From: Actinomycetospora lutea
GTDB lineage: Bacteria > Actinomycetota > Actinomycetes > Mycobacteriales > Pseudonocardiaceae
Length of the DNA stretch: 64,000 bases
Assembly: GCF_028737205.1 (NCBI RefSeq)
Contig: NZ_JAQZAL010000005.1
Coordinates: forward strand, 62,001 to 126,000
Direction: 5' to 3'
The notes under the pieces were generated by a model, which did no database searches, was not told where the DNA came from, and was given only the letters and a program-made list of their open reading frames with translations. Shown piece after piece: positions 2,833 through 15,629 of this stretch (within the stretch, counting starts at the first letter, position 1; every line of letters starts with the position of its first letter). Position numbers and translations under genes: made by a program.

Positions 2833-3438
2833 ATGGCCCGATCAGCAGCCGAGCCCGCAGGCCCGGCCGACACGCCGCGCGTCTGGGAGACCGTCGTCGA
2901 CGCGATCGGCCCCAAGGTGCGTGACCTGCGCCAACAGGCGGGGCTGTCGCTCCAGCAGCTCGCCCGCCGGGCCGACGTCTCGGCCGCCGCCATCCACAAG
3001 GTGGAGCGCGGCGACATGGTCCCGACGATCACCACGCTGCTGAAGCTCGCGGACGCCCTCGAGCGGCCCATCGCCCACTTCGTGGGTGACGAGGGCCCCA
3101 CGACCGTCGCGAGCGTCGTCGCGGCCGGGGCGGGCGCGGAGGTGACCGACGGATCGGGCACCACCCGCACCGCGATCACGGCCGCGCCGGAGCGCTTCCG
3201 GGTCGGCGGCGCGGCGGTGGTGGTGGAGCCCGGCGCGGAGGGCTCGTCGGCGGGGCCGCAGGCCGGCGAGGAGCTGGTGCACCTGCTCGAGGGCGCGCTC
3301 GAGGTCGAGGTGGCCGGGGAGCGCCACGTCCTGGGCGCGGGCGACACCATCCAGTTCCCCGCCGACCGTCACACCCGGTGGCGCAATCCCGGGCCGGGGG
3401 CGGCGCGCGCGGTCTGGCTCACCACGCGGGGCAGCTGA
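2833..3438 (+). CDS. XRE-family transcriptional regulator with C-terminal cupin
   Basis: This is a 201-aa protein. An HTH_XRE domain at about residues 22-75 contains LQQLARRADVSAAAIHKVERG, which is the recognition helix region. A small cupin barrel occupies about residues 115-198 (ELVHLLEGALEVEV, GDTIQFPADRHTRWRNPG). AAGGAG lies 8 nt before ATG 2833. Regulators with this layout usually sense a small metabolite in the cupin and control adjacent catabolic or biosynthetic genes. It sits between the flavoenzyme set and the 3' end of the coenzyme M operon. Its last 70 nt overlap the convergent DUF2877 gene. It probably controls one or both sets; the ligand is unknown. Confidence 0.88.
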   Translation: MARSAAEPAGPADTPRVWETVVDAIGPKVRDLRQQAGLSLQQLARRADVSAAAIHKVERGDMVPTITTLLKLADALERPIAHFVGDEGPTTVASVVAAGAGAEVTDGSGTTRTAITAAPERFRVGGAAVVVEPGAEGSSAGPQAGEELVHLLEGALEVEVAGERHVLGAGDTIQFPADRHTRWRNPGPGAARAVWLTTRGS

Positions 3439-4211
3439 CCCGGCAGCGTCAGCAGGCGCAGCGCCATCCCCGCCGCGAGGTGCCGGCCCGAGTCGGCGCC
3501 CAGGGCGTGCAGCCGCGCCAGGGCGCGGGTCGCGGCGGCCCGGTCGCCGGCCGCGACGGCGTGCAGCCAGTCGTGCGCCGGGGCGACGGACTGGCCGCGG
3601 GCGGCCCAGGCGAGGAACGCGCGCGAGGGCCCGGTGGTGCGGACCGCGGCGCACACCGCCGCCAGGCGGTCCTCGACGCCCGGCCCGCCCGCGGCGCGCT
3701 CGACGAGCACCACGCCCGCCAGCACGTCGTCGCCCGCCGGTGTCAGGCCCGGGCCGCGCCCGCCGACCGCGGCGGCGAGGTCCTCGGGGCTCGTCGCCCG
3801 GGCCGCGGCGGCCAGCAGCTCGCCCGGGACGAGGGCCGCGCGCACGAGGTCGTCGTCACGCGCCGCGAGCGCGTCCGGGCCGGGCGTCGTGCCCCACCAC
3901 ACCGCGCCCGGCCCCCGCAGCGCCCAGCGCGGACCGGCGAGCCTGCTCCCGTCGCCGGTGACCGCCTCACCGATGCGGCAGGGCGGCAGTGTCGTGCACC
4001 GGACGTGCACCGGACCCGGCTCGACCCCGGGCGCCACGAGCGCGACCAGCGCGCCCGCCCCGTCGATGTGTCCGGCTCCCCTATCGGCGTGCTCCCCTGA
4101 TTGCTCCGTGTCCAGCCGCAGGTAGGCGGCCTTGCGGTGCACCGACACCACGCGCCCGGCGACGGGACGGCGCAGCAGCCCGGCGGCGCCGAGGCCGGCG
4201 TCGACGATCAT
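3369..4211 (-). CDS. DUF2877 (AllH/YlbF-like) protein
   Basis: This 280-aa protein carries the DUF2877 signature GRGPGLTPAGDDVLAG in the middle and LGADSGRHLAAGMALRL near the C-terminus. In E. coli the family member YlbF/AllH works with FdrA (AllF) and YlbE (AllG) as oxamate carbamoyltransferase of anaerobic allantoin degradation. Here it is the last gene of a seven-gene run and its ATG overlaps the stop of the DUF1116 gene as ATGA, so the two are coupled as in the All system. No FdrA and no carbamate kinase are visible in the window, so the All reaction may not apply. The 3' end overlaps the convergent regulator. Confidence 0.8.
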   Translation of the reverse strand: MIVDAGLGAAGLLRRPVAGRVVSVHRKAAYLRLDTEQSGEHADRGAGHIDGAGALVALVAPGVEPGPVHVRCTTLPPCRIGEAVTGDGSRLAGPRWALRGPGAVWWGTTPGPDALAARDDDLVRAALVPGELLAAAARATSPEDLAAAVGGRGPGLTPAGDDVLAGVVLVERAAGGPGVEDRLAAVCAAVRTTGPSRAFLAWAARGQSVAPAHDWLHAVAAGDRAAATRALARLHALGADSGRHLAAGMALRLLTLPGQLPRVVSQTARAAPGPGLRHRV

Positions 4212-5605
4212 CCGGCGAGCGCGGCCAGGGCCTCGACGAAGCACGCGAGCGGCGCCGTCGCCACCCCGGCGCCGACCTGGCCCTGCCCCGACGAGGCCGC
4301 GAGGATGCCGGTGGTGACCCGGGGCGTCACGCCCGTCGCCACCACCCTGCGCAGGTCGACACCGACCGGCGTCCCGGCGAACCCCGCCGCGGGCAGCGTG
4401 AACCGGCTGCTCGACCCGACGCAGACCCGGCGGAACGCGTCGGTGGCCGCGGCCGCGTCGGCCATGGAGCCGCCGAGGAAGGCCGCGACGGCCGGGGAGT
4501 TCGCCGCCGCCGGGCCGCCCAGGCCGACGAGCTCGAGGACGGCGCTGTCGCCGATGTCGGGCGCGGCGTCGTCCGGGCCCAGCCCGGAGTAGTAGAGCGC
4601 CTCGCCGACCGGCGGGGCGGCCGTCGTGTACCAGCGCTCGGAGCCCGGCAGGCGGATGCCGAACGTCGTGCCGTTGCGCGCCATCGACGTCACGATCGAC
4701 GAGCCCGGCACCCGCCCGGCCCACAGCGTCAGCGCCTTCGCCGCGCCCATCGCGGGGGTGAGGAAGAACAGGTGGTTGCCGGCGAGGAAGTCGGCGAAGG
4801 GTCCGCGGACGTCGTCGGGCAGCGCCGCGACGTGCCCCACCCAGCTGCGCACGAGCAGGTTGGTGGCCGCCTGGGTGCGCATGTGCAGGTCGTCGCCCAT
4901 GGCGATGCCCTGGGCGGCGACGGCGAGGACGTCGAGCGGCCCGGAGCGTTCCAGCACCGCGGACAGCGCGGGACCGACGACGTCGCGCAGCAGGCGCAGG
5001 CGCGCGATCGCCGCGTCGGTGTCGCGGCCGAACCACGGCACCTCGCCGGGACCCTGGTTGATCGGGGCGAACGCGCGCACGGGCTCCGACCCGTCGTCGG
5101 GGGTGAGGTCGACGACGAGCACCGGCGCCGACGGCCCGATGGCGCTGGCCATCGGGACGACCATGTCGTGGTGGTTCGCGGGCTCGAGCCGGACGTCGCC
5201 GCCGGCGAGCAGGCGGTCGGCCTCCTCGACGTCGGCGGCCCAGCCCTCGGCGACGGTGGCGGCCCGCATCGAGCGCCGCAGCGGGTCGCAGGCGTGCGCC
5301 CAGTCGACCGCGGGACCGCAGTGCAGGAGCATCCGTCCCGCCACGCCGGGCACGACCTCGTCGGCGCGGCGCACGGCGGTCAGGAACGGCACGCCGGTGT
5401 CGAGGCGGCGCAGCACCTCGGCGTTGGCGGTGTCGATCGCCGGGTCGGCGGCGAGGCGGGTCAGGGCGCGCACGGCGTCCGGGTCGCCGCCGGCGGGCGG
5501 GCGCCAGTCGACGTGGGTGACGGTGCCGCCCTGCGCGCGGACGGCCTCGGCGAACATCGGCAGGCCGACGTTGACCACGGCGATCTCGTCGGGCAGGACT
5601 CTCAT
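4208..5605 (-). CDS. DUF1116 (AllG/YlbE-like) protein
   Basis: This is a 465-aa soluble protein that looks like DUF1116 throughout. It includes EPANHHDMVVPMASAIGPSAP, FAPINQGPGEVPWFG, GDDLHMRTQAATNL, NHLFFLTPAMGAAKA and a C-terminal glycine-rich segment ending in a TPRVTTGILAA-type motif. E. coli YlbE/AllG is a subunit of oxamate carbamoyltransferase. The gene starts at ATG 5605, overlapping the stop of the ArgH-like lyase as ATGA, and ends overlapping the DUF2877 gene in the same way. It is therefore co-translated with the coenzyme M genes. Its substrate in this setting is unknown. Confidence 0.82.
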   Translation of the reverse strand: MRVLPDEIAVVNVGLPMFAEAVRAQGGTVTHVDWRPPAGGDPDAVRALTRLAADPAIDTANAEVLRRLDTGVPFLTAVRRADEVVPGVAGRMLLHCGPAVDWAHACDPLRRSMRAATVAEGWAADVEEADRLLAGGDVRLEPANHHDMVVPMASAIGPSAPVLVVDLTPDDGSEPVRAFAPINQGPGEVPWFGRDTDAAIARLRLLRDVVGPALSAVLERSGPLDVLAVAAQGIAMGDDLHMRTQAATNLLVRSWVGHVAALPDDVRGPFADFLAGNHLFFLTPAMGAAKALTLWAGRVPGSSIVTSMARNGTTFGIRLPGSERWYTTAAPPVGEALYYSGLGPDDAAPDIGDSAVLELVGLGGPAAANSPAVAAFLGGSMADAAAATDAFRRVCVGSSSRFTLPAAGFAGTPVGVDLRRVVATGVTPRVTTGILAASSGQGQVGAGVATAPLACFVEALAALAG

Positions 5606-7110
5606 CGGGTCTCCTCCATCTGGCGGGTGGCGTGCCGGACGGTCTCCAGCAGGGCCGCTTCGGCGCCGTCGAACGCGGCGAGGCGCGCGCGGGCCCGCGC
5701 GTCGAGGTCATCGAGGCGGGCGGTGAGGTCGGCCGTCATGCGCGCGACCGCGGCGGGCGCCGCGCCGCCCTGGGCGTCGCGGGAGAGCACGATCCGCCAG
5801 GGGTCGAGGGCGTCGGTGAGGTCGGTGCCGGCGAGCCCGAGCGCGTGGCCGGTGTGCTCGACCGCCGCCCGGTCGAGCATCTCGCCGGTGATCTCGACGC
5901 CCGGCACGCCGGCCCGGCTCGCGGTCCGCACCGCGCGCCCGACCACGAGGTAGGCGGTGCGGTAGTCGACGTCGCAGGTCTGCACGAGGTGCTCGGCGAG
6001 GTCGGTGGCCTGGCTGTAGCCGCCGCGGACCTCTTCGGCGAGCCGGTCGGCGTTGACGCGCAGGGTGCGCACGACACCGGACGCGAGGCGGGTGATCCGC
6101 AGGGTGAGGTCGAGCGCGCGCGGCACCTCGCCGTAGGCGTAGATCAGGTTGTCGCTGCGCGCGGACGGGCTCTTGCTCACCGCGAGGAAGCCCGACAGCC
6201 GCCCGATCAGCACGCCGGACGCCCCGCGGATGATCGAGAGCGAGTACGGGTTGCGCTTCTGCGGCATGAGCACGCTCGCGCGCGTGAAGCCGTGGTCGAG
6301 GTCGACGTAGTCGAACTCGCTGGACGACCAGATCTCCAGGTCCTCGGCGAGCTTCGAGAGGTTCGAGACCAGGCTGGACGCGACCGCGAGCACCGAGATC
6401 AGGCCGTCGACCTGCCACATCGCGTCGCGCGTGTGCTCGATGACCCCGTCGAACCCGAGCGCCTCGGCGACGAACGCGCGGTCCTCCAGCAGCCGGGTGC
6501 CGTTGACGCAGCCGGCGCCGCCCGGGCTGGTGTCCACCCAGTCGAGCTCGGCGAGCAGGCGGTGCCCGTCGCGCACGGTGGAGTAGACGAACGAGAGCAG
6601 GTAGTGCGCGAACGTCGAGGGCTGCGCGTGCTGCAGGTAGGTCTGGTCGGGCATCACCGTCTCGGCGTGCTCCTCGGCACGCGCGACGGCGTCGCGCCCG
6701 AACCGGGCGGCCTCGGTGACGAGCTCGGCGATCTGGTGGCGCACGTGCAGGCGCAGCGCGATCCGCACGGCCTCGCGGCGCGGTCGGCCGGCGTGCAGCC
6801 AGCCCGCGACGTCGCCGAGCTGCGCGACGAACCACGCCTCGCGGGAGTTGTAGGGCTCGCCCAGCTCGGGGTCGTACGGGAAGTCCTGCGCGGGCGTGGC
6901 CTGGGCGACGAGCAGCAGCTCGAGCAGCGCGCGCCGGGCCTCGGGGGGCACGAGGCCGCGGCGGGACAGGTCGAGCACGTGCGCCATGTCCGCGAGGTTG
7001 AGCCCGCGGTGCAGGAACGGGGCGTCGGCGTTCTCCAGCGCGAACCCCGACGCCACGAGCTCGGGCGCCGGGCCGCCGACCGGCGGCCCCTCGTCGCGGG
7101 AGGTGCTCAC
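5602..7110 (-). CDS. ArgH-like aspartase/fumarase-superfamily lyase, probable coenzyme M pathway enzyme
   Basis: This 502-aa protein has the fold of argininosuccinate lyase, but its active-site motifs differ. The superfamily loop GSSxMPxKxNP reads ASVLMPQKRNP (Ser279, Val280, Lys285, Asn287). The segment normally THLQxAQP reads TYLQHAQP (residues 157-164), so the usual catalytic His is Tyr158. In the bacterial coenzyme M pathway of Xanthobacter two superfamily members, XcbC1 and XcbD1, act after XcbB1; XcbC1 eliminates phosphate from phosphosulfolactate to give sulfoacrylate. This gene is the second of two such lyases in the run. I cannot say which is C and which is D. Its GTG overlaps the PLP gene stop as GTGA. 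Confidence 0.8.
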   Translation of the reverse strand: MSTSRDEGPPVGGPAPELVASGFALENADAPFLHRGLNLADMAHVLDLSRRGLVPPEARRALLELLLVAQATPAQDFPYDPELGEPYNSREAWFVAQLGDVAGWLHAGRPRREAVRIALRLHVRHQIAELVTEAARFGRDAVARAEEHAETVMPDQTYLQHAQPSTFAHYLLSFVYSTVRDGHRLLAELDWVDTSPGGAGCVNGTRLLEDRAFVAEALGFDGVIEHTRDAMWQVDGLISVLAVASSLVSNLSKLAEDLEIWSSSEFDYVDLDHGFTRASVLMPQKRNPYSLSIIRGASGVLIGRLSGFLAVSKSPSARSDNLIYAYGEVPRALDLTLRITRLASGVVRTLRVNADRLAEEVRGGYSQATDLAEHLVQTCDVDYRTAYLVVGRAVRTASRAGVPGVEITGEMLDRAAVEHTGHALGLAGTDLTDALDPWRIVLSRDAQGGAAPAAVARMTADLTARLDDLDARARARLAAFDGAEAALLETVRHATRQMEETR

Positions 7111-8084
7111 GGTGCTCCTTCTGTCGTATGTGAGCGAACTTCGGGGCTATAGCCCGGAACTTCGCTCACGTGGGTCAGGGCGGAGACGAGGCCGCCGGTG
7201 AGCCAGAGGAGGGCGGGGCCGTCGGTGCGGTGCTCGACGGCGACGGCGGCCGCCTTGGCGCCGTACGTGTCGTCGAGGAGCACGCCCTCGGTGCCCAGCA
7301 CCAGGTCGGCGGCGGCCCGGTCGGCGGGCGACGCCACCCCGAACCCGGGACCGCGGGCGTCGACGATCGTCAGCTGCTCCGGGCGCGGCGACGCGGTGCC
7401 GGCGAGCGCCGCGGTCTCCCCCGCGAGCCCCAGGACCTTCGCGGTGATCTCGTCGGGTGGGCGGCTCACCGACGCCCCGAGCACCCGCCACCCGGTGCCC
7501 GCCAGCCCCGCCAGCAGCCCCGCGACGCTGCCGCCGGAGCCGACCGGGAGCACGACGGTCGGCGCGTCGGACCCGCCCCACTGCGCGACGACCTCGGCCG
7601 CCGCGCCCGCGAACCCCAGCGCCCCCACCGGCGTCGACCCGCCCCGCGGCACGGCCAGCGGACGCCGACCAGCCGCCGCGAGCTCCGCGCCGAGGCGGTC
7701 GACCTCGCCGTCGACGCGGCCCCGGTCGTCGGAGCCGAGGGCGTGGATGCGCGCGCCCGCGGCGGTCGCCAGCGCCAGGTTCGTGGTCCCGCGGACGTCG
7801 CCCCACACCACGAGCTCGCAGTCCAGCCCCGCCACGCGTGCCGCCTGGGCCGCGGCGGCGACGAAGTTCGAGTCGGGCCCGCCGCCGGTGACCAGCACGT
7901 CGCAGCCCCGCGCGAGGGCGTCGCCGAGCAGGTACTCGAGCGCGCGGACCTTGTTGCCCGCCACGCCGAACCCCGTGAGGTCGTCGCGCTTGAGCCAGAG
8001 GGGGCCGCAGCCCAGGGCCGCGCGCAGCCGGTCGGCCCGCACGAGCGGGGTCGGCAGGACGGCGAGCGGGAACCGCGGGGTCAC
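7107..8084 (-). CDS. xcbE1: PLP-dependent D-cysteine desulfhydrase/ACC-deaminase-family enzyme, XcbE1-like
   Basis: This 325-aa fold-type II PLP enzyme has Lys45 in VAGNKVRALEYLL as the Schiff-base lysine. The usual GGxQSNHAR segment is changed to GGGPDSNFVAA, and PVGSGGSVAGLLAGL forms the phosphate-binding loop. In the Xanthobacter coenzyme M pathway the homologous XcbE1 is implicated in the late thiol-introducing steps. The start GTG 8084 overlaps the upstream lyase stop as GTGA. The last residues (HVSEVPGYSPEVRSH) are encoded by a 40-nt palindrome at 7130-7169, which looks like a repeat element that has become part of the gene. Confidence 0.82.
   Translation of the reverse strand: MTPRFPLAVLPTPLVRADRLRAALGCGPLWLKRDDLTGFGVAGNKVRALEYLLGDALARGCDVLVTGGGPDSNFVAAAAQAARVAGLDCELVVWGDVRGTTNLALATAAGARIHALGSDDRGRVDGEVDRLGAELAAAGRRPLAVPRGGSTPVGALGFAGAAAEVVAQWGGSDAPTVVLPVGSGGSVAGLLAGLAGTGWRVLGASVSRPPDEITAKVLGLAGETAALAGTASPRPEQLTIVDARGPGFGVASPADRAAADLVLGTEGVLLDDTYGAKAAAVAVEHRTDGPALLWLTGGLVSALTHVSEVPGYSPEVRSHTTEGAP
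7130..7169. repeat. 40-nt near-perfect palindrome inside gene 3' end
   Basis: The two 20-nt arms meet without a loop and match at 18 of 20 positions. The outer arms are GTGAGCGAA and TTCGCTCAC, and the centre is GGGCTATAGCCC. The element lies in the last 60 nt of the PLP-enzyme gene and just before the start of the ArgH-like gene. It could be a REP-like interspersed repeat or an mRNA hairpin that tunes the coupled translation or stability of the operon. A second loop-free 40-nt palindrome of unrelated sequence is at 51191-51230. Confidence 0.75.
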
Positions 8085-9421
8085 GACCCGGCCTCGCGGA
8101 GCCGCGCCACCGTCGCGTCGACCATCGCCACGGCCACCCGGTCGGCCGGGCGCGCGAGCCAGCCCCGCACCTCGTCGGCGCTCGCGATCCCCCGCGCCGC
8201 CAGCTCGCCGGCGAGGTCGCCGCCGTCGGCGAGCACCGACTGGAGCAGGTCCTGCGCGGCGTGCTTGCCCAGGCGCGGGGCGAGCGCCGCGAGCACGCGC
8301 TCGGAGCCCAGCCGGTCGCCGTGGCGGGCGAGGTTCGCCGCCATCGCGTCGGCGTGCACCTCCAGGCCGTCGAGCAATGTCCGCGCCAGCGACACCGCCG
8401 TGCCGACGAGCAGGCAGACCTCGGGCAGCGCCGCCCACTCGGCCTTCCACGCGCGCCCGTCGCGCTCGTGCGCGGCGACCACGCCCTCGAGCAGCACGCC
8501 GGCCGACGACCGCGCCAGGCGCGCCAGGGTGTCGAGGTGCTCGCTGACCTCGGGGTTGCGCTTGTGCGGCATGGTGATGCTGCCGACGGCGGTCGGGGTG
8601 GTCGGCTCCGCGAGCTCGCCGATCTCCGGGCGCGCCAGCTCGTACACCTCGCCGCCGATGCGCGCGAGGGTCCCGGCGATCATCGCGAGCACGCCGCCGA
8701 ACTCGGCGACGCGGTCGCGGCTCGTCGTCCACGAGATCCCCGGGTCGCCGAGGCCGAGCTCCGCGCAGAACGCGGCGCGCAGCTCGAGCGGGTCGACGCC
8801 GTCGTCGTCGTGGAAGGCCAGCGCGCCGACGGCCCCGGCGAGCTGGCCGACCGCCCAACGCGGGCGGCCCTCGTCGAGGCGCGCGACGTGGCGGTCCAGC
8901 TCGTCGGCCCACGACGCCGCCTTGAGCCCGAACGTCACGGGGGCCCCGGGCTGGCCGTGGGTGCGGCCCGCGATCGGGGTCGCCCGGTGGGTCGTGGCGA
9001 TCGCCAGCACGCGGTCGGAGACCGCGCGCACGTCGCGGCGCACGAGCGCGCCGACGTCGCGCATCACCGTGCCGAACCAGGTGTCGGTGACGTCCTGGAC
9101 GGTGGCGCCGACGTAGACGTGCTCGCGGGCGCTCTCCGGCAGCACGGCCTGCAGGCCCCGGATCAGCCCGAGCGTGGAGTGCGAGGTCGCGCGGGTCTGC
9201 GTGGCGACCTCGTCCCAGTCCAGCCGCTCCACGCGCGCGCCGGCGGCGATCTGCTCGGCCGCCCCGGCCGGCACGAGGCCCGCCCGCGCCTGCACCCGCG
9301 CGAGCGCGACGAGGATGTCCAGCCACGCCTGCCAGCGGGCCTCCTCGCCCAGGAGCGCGGTCAGCTCGGGCGTCGTCCAGAGGTGCGCGTAGACGGGCGA
9401 GTCGGTCAGGCGGGCGACCAC
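8081..9421 (-). CDS. PcaB/PurB-like aspartase/fumarase-superfamily lyase, probable coenzyme M pathway enzyme
   Basis: This 446-aa protein resembles 3-carboxymuconate cycloisomerase and adenylosuccinate lyase. GRTHGQPGAP keeps the superfamily Thr154-His155 pair. The catalytic loop GSITMPHKRNP (Ser281, Lys287, Asn289) has Ile282 where most members have the second Ser of GSS. No purine or protocatechuate genes surround it. Instead it follows the synthase and the 306-aa gene and is coupled to the PLP gene by GTGA. It therefore fits XcbC1 or XcbD1 of the bacterial coenzyme M route. The start GTG 9421 has GGAG 5 nt upstream and overlaps the preceding gene by 16 nt. Confidence 0.82.
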   Translation of the reverse strand: MVARLTDSPVYAHLWTTPELTALLGEEARWQAWLDILVALARVQARAGLVPAGAAEQIAAGARVERLDWDEVATQTRATSHSTLGLIRGLQAVLPESAREHVYVGATVQDVTDTWFGTVMRDVGALVRRDVRAVSDRVLAIATTHRATPIAGRTHGQPGAPVTFGLKAASWADELDRHVARLDEGRPRWAVGQLAGAVGALAFHDDDGVDPLELRAAFCAELGLGDPGISWTTSRDRVAEFGGVLAMIAGTLARIGGEVYELARPEIGELAEPTTPTAVGSITMPHKRNPEVSEHLDTLARLARSSAGVLLEGVVAAHERDGRAWKAEWAALPEVCLLVGTAVSLARTLLDGLEVHADAMAANLARHGDRLGSERVLAALAPRLGKHAAQDLLQSVLADGGDLAGELAARGIASADEVRGWLARPADRVAVAMVDATVARLREAGS

Positions 9422-10326
9422 CGGGGCTCCTCCCGCTGCGCCAGGCGGGCCAGGGCCTCGCGGACGTGCTCGAGCGACGACCCCCACGGCACCGACACCC
9501 ACCGCGTCGCGCCGTCCGGTCCCTCGACGGTGCCCTCGGCGAGCTCCTCCTGCTGCAGGCAGCACTTGGTGAGCACCGCGCCGGCTCCCTCGGCGGCGAC
9601 CGCGGCGAGCGGGCAGGTGTCCACCCCGGGCGCCTCGCGGCCGTAGAACCAGCGGTGGATCTGCCGGGAGCGCTCGCAGCCCAGGAGCGTCCAGTCGGCC
9701 TCCGGGGGGCGCTCGTCGAGGTAGGACACGGCCGCGCCCGGCACCTCGCCCCCGCCGCCGCGGCAGGGCAGCAGGTAGTGCGCGGCCGGGTGCGCCGCGG
9801 CGAGCTCGGCGAGGTCGACGGTGTGCGGCGTCAGCGCCATCGGCGGGAGGTCCTCGCTGACCTCGAGCACCCGGCGCGCCTGGTCGGCGAGCTTCGCCGG
9901 CCGGGGCGGCACCACCTCCCGCACGGTGACGGGGAGCGGGCGGGCGTCGAGGATGAAGTTCACGTGCTCGTAGCGGCCCTGCACGACGACCGCGCGCGCC
10001 TCCGGGACCTCGGCCGCCGCGGCCGCGAGCAGCGTGGGCACGCCGGTGTCGAGCTCGGGGCGGTGCAGCAGGACCGTCTCGTCGGGACCCGCGAGCAGCG
10101 TGACCTCGACGATCGGGCTGAACAGCTCGTCGTCACCGGCGCGGGCCACCGCGAGCAGCGCGACCGGGCCGTGGTCGGTGTCGGGCGGGCGCACGACGAG
10201 GAAGCGGGTCTTCCAGTACGCCTCGCGCCCGAGGTAGCGCTCGCGCAGCGTCGCCTCGTCGTAGGGCAGCGGCGCGCGCGCCACCGCGACGCCGCGGTAG
10301 CGGCCCGGGACGAGGTTCGCCGTCAT
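9406..10326 (-). CDS. Unrecognised 306-aa Cys-rich protein in coenzyme M operon
   Basis: I do not recognise this family. The N-terminal 180 residues look like mixed alpha/beta with no cofactor motif. All cysteines lie in the C-terminal third, at Cys188, Cys217, Cys238, Cys255 and Cys256, in PCRGGGG, LLGCERSRQ, DTCPL and TKCCLQQ. Such a set could bind an iron-sulfur cluster or zinc, or carry a thiol or persulfide. It starts at ATG 10326 overlapping the synthase stop as ATGA and is followed by a lyase with a 16-nt overlap, so it is locked into the operon. A role in sulfur delivery or in the reductive last step is plausible but only inferred. Confidence 0.85.
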   Translation of the reverse strand: MTANLVPGRYRGVAVARAPLPYDEATLRERYLGREAYWKTRFLVVRPPDTDHGPVALLAVARAGDDELFSPIVEVTLLAGPDETVLLHRPELDTGVPTLLAAAAAEVPEARAVVVQGRYEHVNFILDARPLPVTVREVVPPRPAKLADQARRVLEVSEDLPPMALTPHTVDLAELAAAHPAAHYLLPCRGGGGEVPGAAVSYLDERPPEADWTLLGCERSRQIHRWFYGREAPGVDTCPLAAVAAEGAGAVLTKCCLQQEELAEGTVEGPDGATRWVSVPWGSSLEHVREALARLAQREEPRWSPA

Positions 10327-11111
10327 CGCGCCAGCTCGGCGCTGATCGCGGCGCCGACCGTGCTCGAGGCGGTGTCCGAGCGCAGCCCGAGCCGCAGGGT
10401 CTCCAGGCCCATGACGTCGTCGAGCGCGATGTTGCCCAGGTTGACGTCGGGCCCGAACCGGCGCACGAACCACGCCTGCTGGTGCGCGCGCGGCGCCTCG
10501 AACACCAGGTGCGCGGGCCCGACCGCGTCGGCCAGGGCCTCGACGACGTCCTCGCGCACGCCGCCGTCGGCGCCGAAGATCCCCACGGTGCCGCTCTGCC
10601 GGCCCTCGGCGACCACGAGGTGCGCACCGGCCGCGCGGTCGGCGGCGGCCTCGTCGCGCCACTGCTCGAGGGTGTGCTGCTGGTCGGGGTCCTTCGCGCC
10701 GACCTCGGTGACGACCGCGAAGCGGTCGGCCGCCCGCTCGACGAGGGCGCGCTTGTCGGCGACGGTCATCGGCACCGTCCCGCGGGAGACCTCGACCTGG
10801 CGGAACCCGACCCGGTGCGCCCACGCCAGGCACTGCTCGGCGACGCCCTGCGCCCACGCGATCTCCAGCAGCGTGCCGCCGAGGCAGGAGGCGACCCCGT
10901 GCCCGTCGAGCACCGCGATCTTCTCGGCGATCCGCGGGTCGACGTAGGCGGTGCCCCAGCCGGTCTTCCAGATGTCGACGAAGGCCCCGGCGCCGGCGAG
11001 CAGGTCGGCCGCCGCGGCGGGGCTCACCCCCGGGTCGAGGACGTGCGTGAGCCCGACCGTCCGCGGCGCGGACGACCGGTCAGGCAGCGTCAGGAAGCTC
11101 GGGGTCGCCAT
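10323..11111 (-). CDS. xcbB1: Phosphosulfolactate synthase (ComA/XcbB1 family)
   Basis: This 262-aa TIM-barrel protein carries the ComA family landmarks in order: GLTHVLDPG (20-28), DIWKTGWGT with Lys49, CLGGTLLEIA, VEVSRGT, TEVGAKDP, VAEGRQSGTVGIFG, FEAPRAHQQAWFVRRFG and VNLGNIALDDVMGLETLRLGLR. The family adds sulfite to phosphoenolpyruvate to give (2R)-phosphosulfolactate, the first step of coenzyme M synthesis in methanogens and in Xanthobacter. Some relatives (HSA32, YitD) have other or unknown roles. Here two aspartase/fumarase lyases and a desulfhydrase-like PLP enzyme follow it, which supports the coenzyme M assignment. It is the first gene of the run, with a possibly leaderless promoter. 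Confidence 0.9.
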   Translation of the reverse strand: MATPSFLTLPDRSSAPRTVGLTHVLDPGVSPAAAADLLAGAGAFVDIWKTGWGTAYVDPRIAEKIAVLDGHGVASCLGGTLLEIAWAQGVAEQCLAWAHRVGFRQVEVSRGTVPMTVADKRALVERAADRFAVVTEVGAKDPDQQHTLEQWRDEAAADRAAGAHLVVAEGRQSGTVGIFGADGGVREDVVEALADAVGPAHLVFEAPRAHQQAWFVRRFGPDVNLGNIALDDVMGLETLRLGLRSDTASSTVGAAISAELAR

Positions 11112-11117
11112 GAGCCG

Positions 11118-11144
11118 ATGTTAGATCACATAATGAACGGGCAA
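11118..11144 (-). promoter_or_regulatory. Putative promoter of the coenzyme M operon (leaderless)
   Basis: On the minus strand TTGCCC (11144-11139) and TAACAT (11123-11118) are separated by 15 bp. The latter ends only 6 nt before ATG 11111. If this is the -10 box, transcription would begin at or next to the start codon, giving a leaderless message, which is common in actinobacteria. No Shine-Dalgarno is seen before the ATG, in agreement. The short spacer lowers confidence. Confidence 0.35.
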
Positions 11145-11166
11145 CCACTATCGATGACGATGGGAC

Positions 11167-12153
11167 GTGACCCGGGTGACCCCTGCTGAGGCTCCCGTCC
11201 GCGACCTCCACGCGCTCGCCCGCCGCGTCGCCACGCACCCCGGCACCCGTGGCAAGGCGGCGATCGGGCTGGTCAGCGAGGTCTTCGGCGGCGCCGACTG
11301 GCTGCGGGGCCCCGGCGACGACGGCGCGGTCGTGGAGACCGGCGGCGGGCGCGTGGTCGCCTGCGGCGAGGCGCTGTGGCCGCCGTTCGTGGCGCGCGAC
11401 CCCTGGGGCGCCGGGTTCGCCGCGGTGCTCACCAACGTCAACGACGTCGCCGCCATGGGCGCCGAGCCGCTCGGCATCGTCAACACGGTCAGCGCGTCCG
11501 AGGGCCACGCCCGCGCCGCCCTCGAGGGGATGAGGCACGCCTGCGCCCTCTTCGACGTCCCCGTCCTCGGTGGGCACCTCACGAGCCACGACGGCGAGCC
11601 GTCGATCTCCGCGTTCGCGCTGGGCGCCGTGGACCAGCCGCTCTCGGTGACCCGCGTGGCGCCCGGGCAGGGCCTCGTCGTCGCGGCCGCCCTCGACGGC
11701 ACGATGCGCCCCGACTTCCCCTTCTTCCCCGCCTTCGAGCAGCGCGGCGGGCGCTGCGCCGGCGATGTCCGGGTGCTTGCCGCCCTCGCGCGCCGCGGCG
11801 CCGCCGTGGCGGCCAAGGACGTCAGCATGGCGGGCCTCGTCGGCTCGCTGGCCATGCTGCTGGAGTGGGGCACCTTCGGGGTCGAGGTCGACCTGGACGC
11901 CGTGCCGACCCCGGCCGGCGTCGACCTCGGCGACTGGCTGACCTGCTTCCCGAGCTTCTGCTTCCTGCTCTGCGTGCCCCCGGGACGCGAGGCCGACGCC
12001 GTCGGACCGTTCCGGGCGCGCGGGCTCGAGGCGGCCGTGGTCGGGCGCATCGACGAGACCGGGCGGGTGCGCCTGCGCCGCGGCGACGAGGTGGCCGACG
12101 CGTTCGACCTGACCCGCGAGGGCGTCACCCGGCTGACGCGGGACGACCGGTGA
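11167..12153 (+). CDS. AIR-synthase-related (PurM-like) protein, Sll0787 type
   Basis: This 328-aa protein has a PurM/SelD/ThiL-like two-domain layout. GPGDDGAVV near residue 50 is the ATP-binding DD motif, and GEALWPPFVARDPWGAGFAAVLTNVNDVAAMGAEPL and GGHLTS follow. The second domain contains AKDVSMAGLVGSLAMLLE. This agrees with the Sll0787 AIR-synthase-like family of Nit1C nitrilase/cyanide-assimilation clusters, as I remember it. The family likely phosphorylates or ATP-activates a small substrate, which is unknown. It is divergent from the coenzyme M operon by 55 bp and may share its promoter region. GTG 11167 or the in-frame GTG 11176 could be the start. Confidence 0.8.
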   Translation: MTRVTPAEAPVRDLHALARRVATHPGTRGKAAIGLVSEVFGGADWLRGPGDDGAVVETGGGRVVACGEALWPPFVARDPWGAGFAAVLTNVNDVAAMGAEPLGIVNTVSASEGHARAALEGMRHACALFDVPVLGGHLTSHDGEPSISAFALGAVDQPLSVTRVAPGQGLVVAAALDGTMRPDFPFFPAFEQRGGRCAGDVRVLAALARRGAAVAAKDVSMAGLVGSLAMLLEWGTFGVEVDLDAVPTPAGVDLGDWLTCFPSFCFLLCVPPGREADAVGPFRARGLEAAVVGRIDETGRVRLRRGDEVADAFDLTREGVTRLTRDDR

Positions 12154-12158
12154 GAGCC

Positions 12159-12497
12159 TCAGAGGGCGCACCGGACCCCGGTCACCGGCGCGCCCCGCAG
12201 CGCCACGTCCGCGGCGAGCGCGAACAGCCGCAGGACGCGGTCGGGGCACCGCCACACGTGGTCGGACGCGAAGTCGAGCCACGACTCCGGCGACAGCACG
12301 TCCTCGTGCGTGTAGTCCAGCTCGCCCCACGTCACGGCGATCTCGAAGAGGTCCAGCACGGCGTCCGGGTCGGACTCCACCGCCAGCAGGCGATCGTGGT
12401 GGGCGCTGCGGCGACGCGACGGGGCGCAGCCGCACCGGACGGGCCCGAGGTCGGGGGTCAGCGGGACGACGACGTCGCTCGCGACGGACCGGGTCAT
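12159..12497 (-). CDS. Hypothetical protein, 112 aa
   Basis: ATG 12497 is preceded by GGAGGTGA with 6-nt spacing, a strong ribosome binding site that decides this start over the longer frame. The protein is acidic and contains RCGCAPSRR near the N-terminus, ITVTWGELDYTHEDVLS-like acidic text and a C-terminal hydrophobic helix (LRLFALAADVAL). I recognise no family. It is convergent with the AIR-synthase-like gene (5-nt gap) and divergent from the OsmC gene. Confidence 0.6.
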   Translation of the reverse strand: MTRSVASDVVVPLTPDLGPVRCGCAPSRRRSAHHDRLLAVESDPDAVLDLFEIAVTWGELDYTHEDVLSPESWLDFASDHVWRCPDRVLRLFALAADVALRGAPVTGVRCAL

Positions 12498-12554
12498 GCT
12501 GCCCTCACCTCCGGGGACGGTGACGCTGTGACGCGAGACACTGTGCTCCGCGCT

Positions 12555-12583
12555 GTTGCACCGGTGTTGCACGCGGGTGCGAC
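12555..12583. promoter_or_regulatory. GTTGCAC repeats in divergent promoter
   Basis: Two copies of GTTGCAC start 11 bp apart (12555 and 12566), followed by an inverted related half-site GTGCGAC. They lie between the divergent starts of the 112-aa gene and the OsmC gene. One-helical-turn spacing is compatible with a regulator binding site. No regulator gene is adjacent. Confidence 0.3.
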
Positions 12584-12586
12584 ACG

Positions 12587-12979
12587 GTGACGAAGCGTTC
12601 CGTGGGCGCCGTCTGGGAGGGCGGCATGCGCTGCACGGTCGACGCCGGCGGCTTCCCCCTCGTCGTCGACGAGCCGCCCGAGGCCGGCGGCACCGGGCAG
12701 GGACCGCAGCCCACCGAGCTGCTCCTCGGCGCGATCGCGTCGTGCTTCACCCTCGCGCTGGCCCACAGCGCCGCCAAGCGCGGGATCGCGCTGCGCGGGC
12801 TGTCGGTGGACGCGACGGGCACCTACGACGGCCCGCGCTTCACCGCGGTGGAGATCGCGGTGCGCGCCGAGGCACCGCGGGGCGAGGAGCTCGCGCGGCT
12901 CGCCACGGTGGCGGAGCGGGTCTGCTACGTCACGAACACCCTGCGCGGGAACCCGCCGATCGCGATCACGACGACCTGA
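12587..12979 (+). CDS. OsmC/Ohr-family protein
   Basis: This 130-aa protein has PTELLLGAIASCFTLALAHSAAKRG, where the Cys after AIAS is the first conserved OsmC thiol, and VCYVTNTLRGNPPI, whose Cys is the second. OsmC/Ohr proteins reduce organic hydroperoxides with this Cys pair and are often auxiliary thiol enzymes. The start GTG 12587 is the first in frame. The 3' end overlaps convergent larC by 14 nt. Nearby thiol-cofactor genes make a link to thiol chemistry conceivable. Confidence 0.82.
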   Translation: MTKRSVGAVWEGGMRCTVDAGGFPLVVDEPPEAGGTGQGPQPTELLLGAIASCFTLALAHSAAKRGIALRGLSVDATGTYDGPRFTAVEIAVRAEAPRGEELARLATVAERVCYVTNTLRGNPPIAITTT

Positions 12980-14159
12980 GCGCGCGCCGGGCCCGCTCGG
13001 CCACCTCCGCGGCGGGCAGGCCCAGGGCGCGCGCGGCGGCCTCCACGTCGGCGATCTCCGGCTTCGCCCGCTCGGTGCCGTCGCCGAGCTGCGCGATCTT
13101 CACGGCGATCTCGTGCGCACCGACCCGCACGGTGACCGCGCGCCGCGGCAGCGTCGCGCGGTGCCGGGACGACCAGCGCAGCCCGATCGTCGTGGTGTGC
13201 CGGAACACCGCGTCGGCGACGGCCGGGCGCACCGCCTCGTCGCACACCGCCGACAGCACGTGCCCGGGCCGTCCGTGCCGGGCGACGATCGGGCTGGTCC
13301 AGCAGTCCCACGCGCCCGCCGCCCGCACGGCCTCGAGCACCGCGGGCCAGAGCTGCGGGTCGAGGTCGTCCACGGTGGCCTCGAGGACGACCACCTCGCC
13401 GGTCCGGACGGCGTCGGTGACGGGCGCGGCCCCGAGGACGACGCGGGTGACGTTCGGCCGGTCCGGGGTGTCGCGCGCTCCCCCGCCGACACCGACCGCG
13501 CGCACGGTCAGCGCCGGGAACGACCCGGGGCGGGCGAGCGCGGCGAGCAGCGCGGCCCCGGTCGGCGTGGTGCGCTCGCCGGCCAGGTCGTCGCCGCCCA
13601 GCGCGAGCCCGTGGCGGGCGGCGAGCTCCACCACCGCGGGCACCGGCACCGGCAGCCGCCCGTGCGCGGCGCGGACCGTCCCGCTCCCGGCGGCCAGGGG
13701 CGAGCACACGACCGCGGCGCCGTCGGCGAGCAGCCCGAGGTCGTCGGCCGCCGCGACCACGCCGACGACGTCGGCGAGCGCGTCGTGGGCGCCGACCTCG
13801 TGCAGGGTCACGTTCTGCGACGACGTCCCGTGCACCGCGGCCTCGGCCTCCGCGAGCAGCGTGAACGTCCGGCGGGCGGCGTCCGCAGCACGTCCGGAGA
13901 GGGCACTGCGGTCGACCAGGGGGAGGATCGCCGCGAGGTGCCGGTGCGTCGGGTCGTCGCCCGGCGCGGTGACGTGCGCCCGGCGGCACCGCAGACCGCC
14001 GCGGCGGTCGGTGTCGGTGTGCACGGCGAGCCCGGGCACCCCGAGCGACGCGACCGCCGCGCGCACGCGGTCCTCGTCCGCCCCCGCGTCGACCAGGGCG
14101 GCAAGCAGCATGTCGCCGGCGACGCCCGCCGTGGCGTCGACCCAGCAGGCCTCACCCAC
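12966..14159 (-). CDS. larC: Nickel-pincer cofactor synthesis protein LarC
   Basis: This 397-aa protein opens with CWVDATAGVAGDMLLAALVDAG, the DUF111/LarC signature. It also has NVTLHEVGAHDALADVVG, TPTGAALLAAL and EATVDDLDPQLWPAVLEA. LarC is the CTP-dependent cyclometallase that inserts nickel into the pincer nucleotide of lactate racemase-type enzymes. It is a single uninterrupted frame, unlike the ribosomal-frameshift larC1/larC2 of Lactiplantibacillus. GTG 14159 overlaps the larB stop by 8 nt. It is the last gene of larE-larB-larC. Confidence 0.9.
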   Translation of the reverse strand: MGEACWVDATAGVAGDMLLAALVDAGADEDRVRAAVASLGVPGLAVHTDTDRRGGLRCRRAHVTAPGDDPTHRHLAAILPLVDRSALSGRAADAARRTFTLLAEAEAAVHGTSSQNVTLHEVGAHDALADVVGVVAAADDLGLLADGAAVVCSPLAAGSGTVRAAHGRLPVPVPAVVELAARHGLALGGDDLAGERTTPTGAALLAALARPGSFPALTVRAVGVGGGARDTPDRPNVTRVVLGAAPVTDAVRTGEVVVLEATVDDLDPQLWPAVLEAVRAAGAWDCWTSPIVARHGRPGHVLSAVCDEAVRPAVADAVFRHTTTIGLRWSSRHRATLPRRAVTVRVGAHEIAVKIAQLGDGTERAKPEIADVEAAARALGLPAAEVAERARRALRSS

Positions 14160-14817
14160 CGGCCGCCGACCTCTCGATCTTCGCCGCGTGCACGGCGGCA
14201 CCGAACCCGTTGTCGACGTTGACCACGACCAGGCCCGGGGCGCAGGTGGCCAGCATGCTCGCGGTGGCCGCGAGGCCCCCGGCCGCGACCCCGTACCCGA
14301 CGCTGGTCGGCACCCCGATCACCGGCGCGGCGACCAGCCCCGCGACGACGCTCGGCAGGGCCCCGTCCATGCCCGCGACGACCACCACCACGTGCGCGGC
14401 GCGCACCCGCTCGAGGTGCCCGAGCAGCCGGTGCAGGCCGGCGACGCCGACGTCGGGGACGAGCTCCGCCGCGACGCCCAGCACCGCCAGGGTCGCGGCG
14501 CACTCGCGGGCCACCGGGACGTCGGCCGTGCCCGCGGTGAGCAGCACCGTGTCCCCCACCGGCACGGGGACCGCGCCGACGACGACCGTGCGGCCCACCG
14601 GATCCACGGCCACGGGCTCGCCGGGGAACGCGTCGGGCGCGGCGGCGAGCACCGCGTCGGGGCAGCGCGTGGCGAGCGCGGGCCCGGACGGGTCGCCCCG
14701 CCGCAGCGCCGCCAGCAGGGCGAGCGTCTGCCCGGTGGTCTTGCCGGAGGCGAGCACCACCTCGGGGACCCCGGTGCGCCGGCGCCGGTCGTGGTCGAGC
14801 TCGGCGTGCTCGGTCAC
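14152..14817 (-). CDS. larB: Pincer cofactor carboxylase/hydrolase LarB
   Basis: This 221-aa protein is related to AIR carboxylase PurE. It has RRTGVPEVVLASGKT near the N-terminus and VVVVAGMDGALPSVVAGL followed by GVPTSVGYG in the C-terminal half. LarB carboxylates nicotinic acid adenine dinucleotide and cleaves it to the P2CMN precursor of the nickel-pincer nucleotide. The start GTG 14817 overlaps the larE stop as GTGA, so larE, larB and larC are co-translated. Confidence 0.9.
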   Translation of the reverse strand: MTEHAELDHDRRRRTGVPEVVLASGKTTGQTLALLAALRRGDPSGPALATRCPDAVLAAAPDAFPGEPVAVDPVGRTVVVGAVPVPVGDTVLLTAGTADVPVARECAATLAVLGVAAELVPDVGVAGLHRLLGHLERVRAAHVVVVVAGMDGALPSVVAGLVAAPVIGVPTSVGYGVAAGGLAATASMLATCAPGLVVVNVDNGFGAAVHAAKIERSAAGG

Positions 14818-15629
14818 CCGCGCTCCACCGGCGTGAGCACCAGGTTGAGCGAGCCGGACCGGAACGGCCGGTCCTCGACGACGACCTCGTCGTACCCGGC
14901 GGCCCGGACGACCTCGTGCACGCGCGCCCGGGCCCCGTCGTCGAGCGCCGCCAGCTCGTCGGCGCCGAGCTCGACGCGCGCCAGCGTCCCGAAGTGGCGG
15001 ACCCGCAGGATCCGCAGGCCCAGCGCCTTGAGGCCCGCCTCGGCCCGGTCGACGCGCGCCAGCACGTCGACGCGGACCTCCGTGCCGTAGGGCAGCCGCG
15101 AGGAGAGGCACGGCGAGGCGGGCTTCTCGGCGCTCGGGACGCGCAGGAGCCGCGCGATCGCCCGCACCCCGTCCTTGCCGATCCCGGCCTCGAGCAGCGG
15201 GTGGCGCACGCCGTGCTCGGCGGCGGCGCGCAGGCCCGGACGCCAGTCGCCGAGGTCGTCGGCGTTGGCGCCGGAGACCACGACGGCCCCGCCCCGGCCG
15301 GCCGCGAGCCCGTCGAGGCGGTCGTAGAGCTCGCTCTTGCAGTGGTAGCAGCGGTCGCGGTCGTTGCGCCGGTAGCCGGGACGCTCCAGCTCCGCGGTGT
15401 CGACCACCTCGTGCGCGATCCCCAGCGCCCGCGCGACCTCCCGCGCCCCGTCGAGCTCGCCCGAGGCCAGCGCGGGCGACACCGCGGTGACCGCGGTCGC
15501 GCGGGCGCCGAGCTGCTCCACCGCGACCGCGGCCACCACCGACGAGTCGACCCCGCCCGAGAAGGCGACGACGACCGGCCCCGACGCGCGCAGGCGCCGG
15601 CGCAGATCCCCGAGCCGCTCCTCGATCAC
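14814..15629 (-). CDS. larE: Pincer cofactor sulfur transferase LarE
   Basis: This 271-aa protein has the PP-loop SGGVDSS (24-30), CYHCKSELY with Cys94 and Cys97, and KPASPCLSSRLPYG with Cys174. The last corresponds to the sacrificial Cys176 of Lactiplantibacillus LarE, which donates its own sulfur. LarE thiolates the adenylylated P2CMN ring acids. The extra CxxC is present in many homologues. It heads the larEBC run. No larA (lactate racemase or another DUF2088 enzyme) is seen in the window, so the enzyme that receives the cofactor lies elsewhere. Confidence 0.9.
   Translation of the reverse strand: MIEERLGDLRRRLRASGPVVVAFSGGVDSSVVAAVAVEQLGARATAVTAVSPALASGELDGAREVARALGIAHEVVDTAELERPGYRRNDRDRCYHCKSELYDRLDGLAAGRGGAVVVSGANADDLGDWRPGLRAAAEHGVRHPLLEAGIGKDGVRAIARLLRVPSAEKPASPCLSSRLPYGTEVRVDVLARVDRAEAGLKALGLRILRVRHFGTLARVELGADELAALDDGARARVHEVVRAAGYDEVVVEDRPFRSGSLNLVLTPVERG

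Follow-up and report, generated by a model that had tools for sequence, protein, structure and literature searches.

Coenzyme M (CoM) is known as a cofactor in the metabolism of methane, alkanes and alkenes. In the literature searched, its bacterial synthesis is tied to alkene and epoxide metabolism, and the Nit1C gene cluster is unexplained past its nitrilase step. These two subjects meet in the genome of Actinomycetospora lutea (assembly GCF_028737205.1, contig NZ_JAQZAL010000005.1), which raises the question of what a CoM-type (xcb) operon does among genes of nitrile metabolism. The stretch analysed, here called the window, comprises 64,000 nucleotides (nt) and corresponds to C62:62001-126000 of the source genome (G000); positions without a prefix are those of the window. 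The answer favoured here is that the operon directs the synthesis of CoM, or of a very close sulfonate thiol, for Nit1C-type assimilation of nitrile or cyanide nitrogen, and not for epoxide metabolism; belief and doubt in this proposal are about evenly balanced. The genomic association of Xcb proteins with nitrile genes is well supported, and the cluster is a variant of two systems that were known before. What genes it contains, that they recur, that catalytic residues are conserved and that the AllG proteins form a separate clade are plain observations.

The operon encodes all five Xcb proteins

The operon occupies positions 3369-11111 of the minus strand and consists of seven open reading frames in the transcription order xcbB, xcbA, xcbD, xcbE, xcbC, allG and allH. 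As the first-pass annotation of this DNA had reported, the frames overlap at all six junctions, by 4 nt (ATGA or GTGA) at five of them and by 16 nt at the xcbA/xcbD junction; a single transcript with coupled translation is therefore likely, judging from the sequence.

XcbB (10323-11111; 262 amino acids (aa)) is a phosphosulfolactate synthase of the ComA type (PF02679, 260.6 bits) and the sole ComA match in the source genome; with the archaeal equivalog model TIGR03849 it scores 227 bits and does not reach the cut-off of 280. The Cys-rich XcbA (9406-10326; 306 aa; DUF7714/XcbA family) matches NF052538 with 296 bits (cut-off 150), has the invariant cysteines C188, C217, C238, C255 and C256, and is 91% identical to XcbA of Actinomycetospora succinea. 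Presumably it acts in a late thiolation or reduction step of CoM synthesis. Its AlphaFold2 model has a mean predicted local distance difference test (pLDDT) score of 92, and a structure search gave no firm fold match. XcbD (8081-9421; 446 aa), a member of the aspartase/fumarase superfamily, reaches 575 bits with NF052536, a model labelled 3-sulfopropionylcysteine synthase in NCBIfam, and thus lies just below the cut-off of 600. XcbE (7107-8084; 325 aa), a D-cysteine-desulfhydrase-like pyridoxal phosphate enzyme, has its best, though weak, match in NF052537 (240 bits, cut-off 450) and retains N44-K45, with K45 invariant. XcbC (5602-7110; 502 aa), the phosphosulfolactate phosphate-eliminating lyase, scores 419 bits with NF052535 (cut-off 575) and keeps the invariant residues S279, K285 and N287. 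Wu and colleagues reportedly described, in PNAS in 2022, a route to CoM in five steps, namely sulfite addition, phosphate elimination, decarboxylation, thiolation and reduction.

A long palindrome at 7130-7169, with GTGAGCGAAnTTC arms flanking GGGCTATAGCC, lies within the 3'-terminal part of xcbE, which encodes the C-terminus. It is also present at the corresponding position in A. succinea (L006 and L073, the same genome) and is absent from the other 97 of 99 loci. The C-terminus of XcbE past residue 288 is unmatched by the family model.

In profile searches both lyases are matched best by Xcb models, XcbC with 419 bits versus 287 for argH, and XcbD with 575 bits versus 387 for an adenylosuccinate lyase subfamily and 267 for PcaB. 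The earlier identification of the Xcb set is thus borne out; one result points in the opposite direction, in that XcbC also passes argH's own cut-off of 279.5. The scores of XcbC and XcbE below their cut-offs say little, because the control proteins from the alkene plasmid of Mycolicibacterium NBB4 miss them as well (XcbC, 399 bits; XcbE, 310 bits; XcbD passes with 711). The source XcbC even outscores its NBB4 counterpart.

The annotation had counted three genes in excess of the Xcb scheme. This fails because one of them, the 306-aa protein, is XcbA, which also occurs in known alkene/CoM clusters. The true additions are AllG (4208-5605; 465 aa; DUF1116, PF06545, 203.5 bits, cut-off 27), the N-terminus of which resembles the C-terminal segment of FdrA, and AllH (3369-4211; 280 aa; DUF2877, PF11392, 67.9 bits, cut-off 25), both related to subunits of oxamate carbamoyltransferase.

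The operon lies in a nitrile-type cluster

The operon is part of a cluster of about 20 kb (C62, approximately 54.7-75.0 kb) that starts about 7 kb to the left of the window, in the stretch denoted L064. Leftward from the operon follow a helix-turn-helix (HTH)-cupin regulator (2833-3438, plus strand; HTH_3 and Cupin_2), a CoA-disulfide-reductase-like flavoprotein (1348-2694, minus; TIGR03385, 255 bits, cut-off 579) with a redox cysteine (SPCGIPYV), a small conserved 93-aa protein (c27; 1065-1346, minus), the MSMEG_0572/Sll0783 protein (510-995, minus; TIGR04044, 224 bits, cut-off 110), which is weakly DsrE-like (E = 0.003, below the DsrE cut-off), and nitrile hydratase beta (3-431, minus, cut by the window edge; TIGR03888, 161 bits, cut-off 152). 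The alpha subunit and the accessory protein of nitrile hydratase are located to the left of the window. Still further left lie the glycosyltransferase MSMEG_0565 (TIGR04047, 352 bits, cut-off 260; weakly similar to MshA, 81 bits, and BshA, 57 bits), AllF (376 bits, below the NF004760 cut-off of 433), carbamate kinase, the protein c11 (212 aa), the radical SAM protein MSMEG_0568 (NitD; C62:55290-56318; TIGR04043, 376 bits, cut-off 303.7) and a GNAT protein. Rightward, only 55 bp separate the start of xcbB from a divergent AIR-synthase-like gene, putatively of the sll0787/NitF type (11167-12153, plus; best match TIGR04049, 247 bits, below the cut-off of 321), which is followed by the small conserved neighbour c16 (12159-12497, minus; cluster 16, in 23 loci) and an OsmC family protein (12602-12979, plus; PF02566).

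The use of the product had been called open. It is less open than that, because the operon sits in a cluster of Nit1C, nitrile hydratase and carbamate kinase genes. As had been noted, alkene monooxygenase and 2-ketopropyl-CoM carboxylase (2-KPCC) are not nearby: neither these two nor EtnE and CoA-transferase were found in a search that covered the window and the adjoining 26 kb on its left, but not the remainder of the genome. The query for nitrilase (NitC) matched nothing in the window or L064, where the nitrile hydratase alpha, beta and accessory genes are found instead. On C40 the source genome carries another Nit1C-like locus, of the classical kind, where no xcb or allG match was seen.

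Only two matches to these alkene genes were obtained. An EtnE-like frame at 61067-62077 shares 31% identity with EtnE and encodes a protein like cobalamin-independent methionine synthase, its best model being a methionine synthase, below that model's cut-off. The other match was the disulfide-reductase-like protein (23% identity).

Two proteins of the cluster have unusual features. The MSMEG_0568-type radical SAM proteins (for example, L064:5237-6394 and L069:8204-9304) carry C-x8-C-x2-C or C-x9-C-x2-C in 38 of 39 rows, where C-x3-C-x2-C is usual. The c11 protein (about 212 aa; L064:6432-7070 and homologues) has no Pfam or NCBIfam match, is encoded in 21 of 47 nit-type loci, and has a predicted structure (pLDDT 90) for which no PDB match was obtained below E 0.001.

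The same gene set recurs in three phyla

A total of 65 xcb loci was compared: 58 found via the XcbA of the window, five from plasmid records (Xanthobacter Py2, two of Mycolicibacterium chubuense NBB4, Nocardioides JS614 and Methylocystis iwaonis, with the M. iwaonis plasmid H2 left out), a second Methylocystis set (L076) and the window itself. A locus was called nit-type when an AIR-synthase-like, radical SAM, GNAT or MSMEG_0572 gene was present and etnE and CoA-transferase genes were not, and alkene-type in the reverse case. The absence of the opposite markers is thus built into the sorting rule, and the informative part is that a single locus has both sets. This locus, on a M. iwaonis plasmid (L069/L070), has a full nit-type cluster and, about 20 kb from xcb, a remnant of EtnE. 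The context was nitrile in 48 loci (47 by markers, plus L069), alkene in 13 and neither in four. Among the unsorted loci with few genes in view, L021 and L027 group with the nit-type and L050 and L055 with the alkene-type sequences in the XcbD tree. On the M. iwaonis plasmid, the EtnE remnant (L070:8665-9005) and cydAB (11054-13489) lie near the nit-type cluster; the bd-type oxidase encoded by cydAB is often cyanide-tolerant.

Genes that played no part in the sorting separate the two types: allG is present in 35 of 47 nit-type loci, nitrile hydratase alpha in 27 and allF in 24, versus none of the 13 alkene-type loci in each case. Likewise, allH (28/47), allK (21/47) and nitrilase (4/47) occur in nit-type but not in alkene-type loci. 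The further genes found in the 47 nit-type loci, many of which are partial, are those for the AIR-synthase-like protein (39), OsmC (36), GNAT (34), the disulfide-reductase-like protein (32), MSMEG_0572 and HTH-cupin (30 each), c27 (29) and radical SAM (27); a weak 2-KPCC-like match and a weak SDR-like match occur in one locus each. Of the 13 alkene-type loci, 12 carry etnE, and not one has allF, allG, allH or allK, nor a gene for nitrile hydratase, nitrilase or OsmC. The redox cysteine motif of the disulfide-reductase-like protein is found in 30 of 30 PNDR rows. A similar protein with a similar motif (about 30% identity) flanks xcb in alkene clusters also, which is probably a functional parallel only.

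At the level of genomes (50 of 58 were searched), the radical SAM family is above its cut-off in 39 of 43 nit-type versus two of seven alkene-type genomes, both of the latter having the classical class; the nit-type exceptions are G010 (none), G015 (fragments), G021 (partial) and G047 (24 bits). AllG is encoded in 42 of 44 nit-type genomes, the exceptions being G023 and G048.

Nit-type clusters are found in Actinomycetota, Pseudomonadota and Chloroflexota. The xcb order is A-B-C-D-E in the nit-type loci of Chloroflexota and B-A-D-(E)-C in the others, and the gene order of the whole clusters is highly variable with constant content, which favours a joint function over passive neighbourhood. The same set recurs in other genera and thus is not a product of chance. 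Methylocystis Sn-Cys even contains both an alkene-type (L076) and a separate nit-type xcb set, with XcbE scores of 518 and 210 bits, respectively.

Within the order of the source organism, XcbA was found in seven of 397 genomes, the source genome included. Five of these (one being the source genome; family codes f1, f5 and f10) are nit-type, with a radical SAM protein of 376-385 bits and AllG encoded on one and the same contig. Two, G313 (L093) and G150, are alkene-type; an identical AllG match suggests that G150 is the genome of L042. The radical SAM variant of 376-385 bits occurs in six genomes, and its association with XcbA gives p = 1.6e-9 in a Fisher test (7.4e-8 without the source genome), values that are not corrected for kinship and follow a class limit set after the scores had been seen. 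The source genome is the only carrier of XcbA that also has a classical radical SAM protein (>440 bits).

In the open-licence PMC literature, no paper was found that ties xcb or CoM synthesis to Nit1C, nitrile hydratase or AllG. Passages of one article on a sponge community name phosphosulfolactate synthase and nitrile hydratase transcripts separately (PMC4412061).

Conservation and phylogeny of the Xcb proteins and AllG

Do the Xcb proteins of the nit-type clusters catalyse the same reactions as those of the alkene clusters? Alignments that combine 44-50 sequences of the nit-type (34 in the case of XcbE) with 11-15 of the alkene-type, L021, L027, L050 and L055 having been assigned by hand, contain 33 positions in XcbB, 30 in XcbA, 67 in XcbD, 28 in XcbE and 59 in XcbC that are invariant in both types. 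Near-fixed differences between the types number only two in XcbE and two to six in the other proteins. Because invariant positions are many and fixed differences few, the chemistry is probably the same or nearly so.

In quick maximum-likelihood trees with SH-aLRT (Shimodaira-Hasegawa-like approximate likelihood ratio test) support, the alkene and nit labels need just two changes on each of the XcbD, XcbA and XcbC trees. The XcbD and XcbC trees place the nit-type sequences of Actinomycetota and Pseudomonadota together and those of Chloroflexota with Py2 and the alkene-type Methylocystis sequences, with which they share the A-B-C-D-E order. An association with Nit1C is thus found in both halves of the xcb family. 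It should be noted that the XcbC tree carries a long-branch warning and that the alkene-type L054 adjoins the nit-type group in it.

In the AllG tree, 35 xcb-linked sequences and 17 unlinked ones lie on opposite sides of a branch with a support of 93, which rises to 100 once the long Chloroflexota row is left out; the unlinked sequences were hand-picked from the same and related genomes, and E. coli AllG was left out. The sequences of Methylocystis, Nitrobacter and Sphingobium lie beside those of Nocardioides and Kribbella, matching the XcbD tree, an arrangement that joint transfer of the whole module would produce.

Carbamate kinase and the nitrile-converting enzyme

Carbamate kinase was searched in 40 genomes. 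Chloroflexota aside, all 27 nit-type genomes that lack a linked nitrilase have it, versus none of four with one (G029, G030 and G040, with nitrilase beside xcb, and Paraburkholderia G023, where nitrilase and xcb share a contig at a distance of about 33 kb). Nitrile hydratase alpha is encoded in 24 of the 27; in G050 carbamate kinase lies on a different contig from the xcb-linked AllG. When only loci with a nitrile enzyme and an AllF block in view are considered, carbamate kinase accompanies nitrile hydratase in 16 of 16 cases and nitrilase in none of three. It is also present in four of seven alkene-type genomes. The metal motif of nitrile hydratase alpha (CTLCSC or CSLCSC) is kept in 28 of 32 rows, the other four being cut short. 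Taken together, the co-occurrences are consistent with a pathway that branches at the nitrile.

Proposed role of the operon

A scheme that would accommodate these genes begins with XcbB-A-D-E-C, which would make the thiol from phosphoenolpyruvate, sulfite and a thiol donor. The disulfide-reductase-like protein, a candidate CoM-disulfide reductase, may keep the sulfonate thiol reduced; both it and OsmC fit a small-thiol pathway. The radical SAM, GNAT, AIR-synthase-like, MSMEG_0572 and MSMEG_0565 proteins would form a nitrile, perhaps via the capture of cyanide, and the simplest guess for this nitrile would be a thiol-bound cyano group, CoM-S-CN. The nitrile-forming step and the S-cyano identity are the weakest part of the scheme and doubtful. 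Nitrile hydratase would then convert the nitrile to an amide or S-carbamoyl group, AllF-AllG-AllH would transfer the carbamoyl group to phosphate, and carbamate kinase would make ATP with release of NH3 and CO2 and regeneration of the carrier. In the proteobacterial versions, which lack carbamate kinase, nitrilase would free NH3 directly. That CoM is specifically the cyanide or nitrile carrier of a Nit1C-type pathway, in which nitrile hydratase hydrates the carrier-bound nitrile while AllFGH and carbamate kinase conserve its carbamoyl group in the form of carbamoyl phosphate and ATP, is a more specific proposal, which we regard as rather unlikely to be right.

Several observations weigh against a role of the operon in nitrile metabolism or limit the evidence for it. 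The ratio of 48 to 13 loci is not a census, because 58 loci were found with the XcbA of the window. The contrast with nitrilase is small, comprising four genomes that all belong to the Pseudomonadota, and AllF and AllG are retained in three of these four, where a carbamoyl step seems needless; in Sphingobium both lie on another contig, and Paraburkholderia G023 lacks AllG. Three genomes (G024, G025 and G028) have allG and carbamate kinase without nitrile hydratase alpha in the genome or a nitrilase in view, and carbamate kinase is present in only one of the two Chloroflexota (G049, not G048). Conversely, two of seven alkene-type genomes encode AllG: G043 an ordinary one (324 bits) and G033, the genome of L042, a 199-bit fragment at a contig end together with a second XcbE-like match of 232 bits, perhaps pieces of a second cluster. 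Classical Nit1C is found without xcb, C40 of the source genome included, and G238 has the variant radical SAM without XcbA, only radical SAM, GNAT and glycosyltransferase having been seen there. Lastly, 11 of the 12 Acidimicrobiia genomes searched for xcbE lack it, and xcbD is directly followed by xcbC in 11 of 14 Acidimicrobiia loci (L030, L034, L035, L039, L041, L043, L044, L048, L057, L059 and L063; the gap between hit ends is 20-46 nt in ten and 193 nt in L035); of the remaining three, L029 has xcbE, and L040 and L058 are ambiguous. Because xcbE is missing, the end product in Acidimicrobiia need not be CoM. The missing xcbE, the missing nitrile hydratase, the co-occurrence of AllF-AllG with nitrilase, Nit1C without xcb and the variant radical SAM without XcbA are the reasons why our confidence stays close to the midpoint.

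The absence of xcbE also speaks for a different sulfonate or sulfonate thiol, for example, a conjugate or a cysteine adduct of the XcbD type, on which the nitrile pathway would draw. A different sulfonate thiol had already been named in the first-pass annotation; it is a possible product, unlikely but to be reckoned with. The low XcbE scores of the window (240 bits) and the nit-type Methylocystis sequences (209-210) point the same way, given 310 for the mycobacterial and 518-523 for the alkene-type Methylocystis and Xanthobacter proteins. Nevertheless, the nit-type XcbE of Chloroflexota scores 332-336 bits, equal to alkene-type ones, the fixed differences in the Xcb proteins are as few as described, and XcbA with its presumed late CoM step is retained, although the latter follows from searching with XcbA. 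A natural-product or cofactor pathway, in which Xcb, glycosyltransferase, GNAT, AIR-synthase-like and radical SAM proteins build a glycosylated sulfonate that the nitrile enzymes tailor, would suit the mixture of biosynthetic enzymes and the weak likeness of MSMEG_0565 to MshA and BshA. Passages of PMC11049912 treat Nit1C chemistry past the nitrilase as not worked out, which leaves room for it. However, the co-occurrence of carbamate kinase with AllF-AllG and the alternation of nitrile hydratase and nitrilase look catabolic, and we consider this explanation improbable.

It is very improbable that the neighbours are incidental and that the operon, as a usual CoM operon, supplies alkene or epoxide metabolism encoded at another place in the genome. 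The same five genes, the B-A-D-E-C order, nearly the same invariant residues as in alkene-cluster Xcb proteins and the likewise sub-threshold XcbC and XcbE of the mycobacterial alkene cluster would be expected in that case, but only one of 65 loci has both marker sets, and there EtnE is a remnant; the clades are largely separate, Methylocystis Sn-Cys maintains two distinct sets, and the sole EtnE-like frame of the window is of the methionine-synthase type. Still less credible is the view that AllG and AllH are plain oxamate or oxalurate carbamoyltransferase subunits of purine breakdown that came to lie beside xcb by chance. They belong to the same families as E. coli AllG and AllH (as a passage of PMC11326118 describes them), and AllF and carbamate kinase are nearby; but the linked AllG clade stands apart from the 17 unlinked sequences, genomes such as G008, G011, G015 and G025 have other AllG paralogues, and the block follows xcb across families and phyla despite rearranged order.

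By joining CoM and Nit1C genes in three phyla, the cluster suggests where else CoM might be sought and what Nit1C-type genes may do, and it points to a possible energy-conserving route from nitrile via carbamoyl phosphate to ATP. In addition, xcb genes by themselves do not mean alkene oxidation, and XcbC, XcbD and XcbE are easily misannotated as ArgH, PurB/PcaB and D-cysteine desulfhydrase.

Further observations

The cluster adjoins larC, larB and larE (12966-15629), nickel-pincer cofactor genes that all score above cut-off; families c19, c20 and c22, Lar-like by size only, are neighbours of xcb in 16-17 loci of Pseudonocardiaceae. Because LarE is a sulfur transferase, a link to a thiol cofactor is conceivable. 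In Methanosarcina acetivorans, a control genome, a DUF7714/XcbA match above the cut-off was found, which could bear on the last steps of archaeal CoM synthesis.

Comparison with known systems

The operon resembles the alkene/CoM clusters in having all five Xcb proteins with their catalytic residues and the B-A-D-E-C order of the NBB4 and JS614 plasmids, whereas the order in Xanthobacter Py2 is A-B-C-D-E. In the ethene/CoM plasmids of M. chubuense NBB4 (two) and Nocardioides JS614, xcbB and xcbD flank a gene for an XcbA homologue, and a passage of PMC8727900 gives the name xcbF1 to a 308-aa protein encoded between xcbB1 and xcbE1. The difference lies in the surroundings, in which Nit1C genes, nitrile hydratase, AllFGH and carbamate kinase replace EtnE, CoA-transferase, 2-KPCC and alkene monooxygenase.

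Nit1C (nitBCDEFGH, in Pseudomonas and others), described in PMC11049912 as essential for cyanide use in Pseudomonas, has in common with the cluster the MSMEG_0568 radical SAM, GNAT, AIR-synthase-like, MSMEG_0565 glycosyltransferase and MSMEG_0572 proteins and a nitrile-hydrolysing enzyme. Unlike Nit1C, the loci of Actinomycetota encode a lower-scoring class of radical SAM protein (about 360-400 versus about 480-600 bits), have nitrile hydratase in place of nitrilase, and have xcb and allFGH(K) added. With the oxamic transcarbamylase AllFGH and AllK of the E. coli allantoin pathway, the cluster shares homologues of AllF, AllG, AllH and carbamate kinase near each other; it differs in its separate AllG clade, the FdrA-like N-terminal piece of AllG and the division into two blocks around nitrile hydratase, and no allantoin-pathway gene was seen among the genes examined. 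A close relative is found on the M. iwaonis plasmid pSS37A-Re-1, where xcbB-A-D-E-C lies beside a Nit1C nitrilase cluster with AllF-like, AllG, MSMEG_0572 and disulfide-reductase-like proteins. This plasmid has nitrilase, nearby cydAB and the EtnE remnant, whereas nitrile hydratase and carbamate kinase, which characterize the A. lutea cluster, are not present in the 42 kb viewed.

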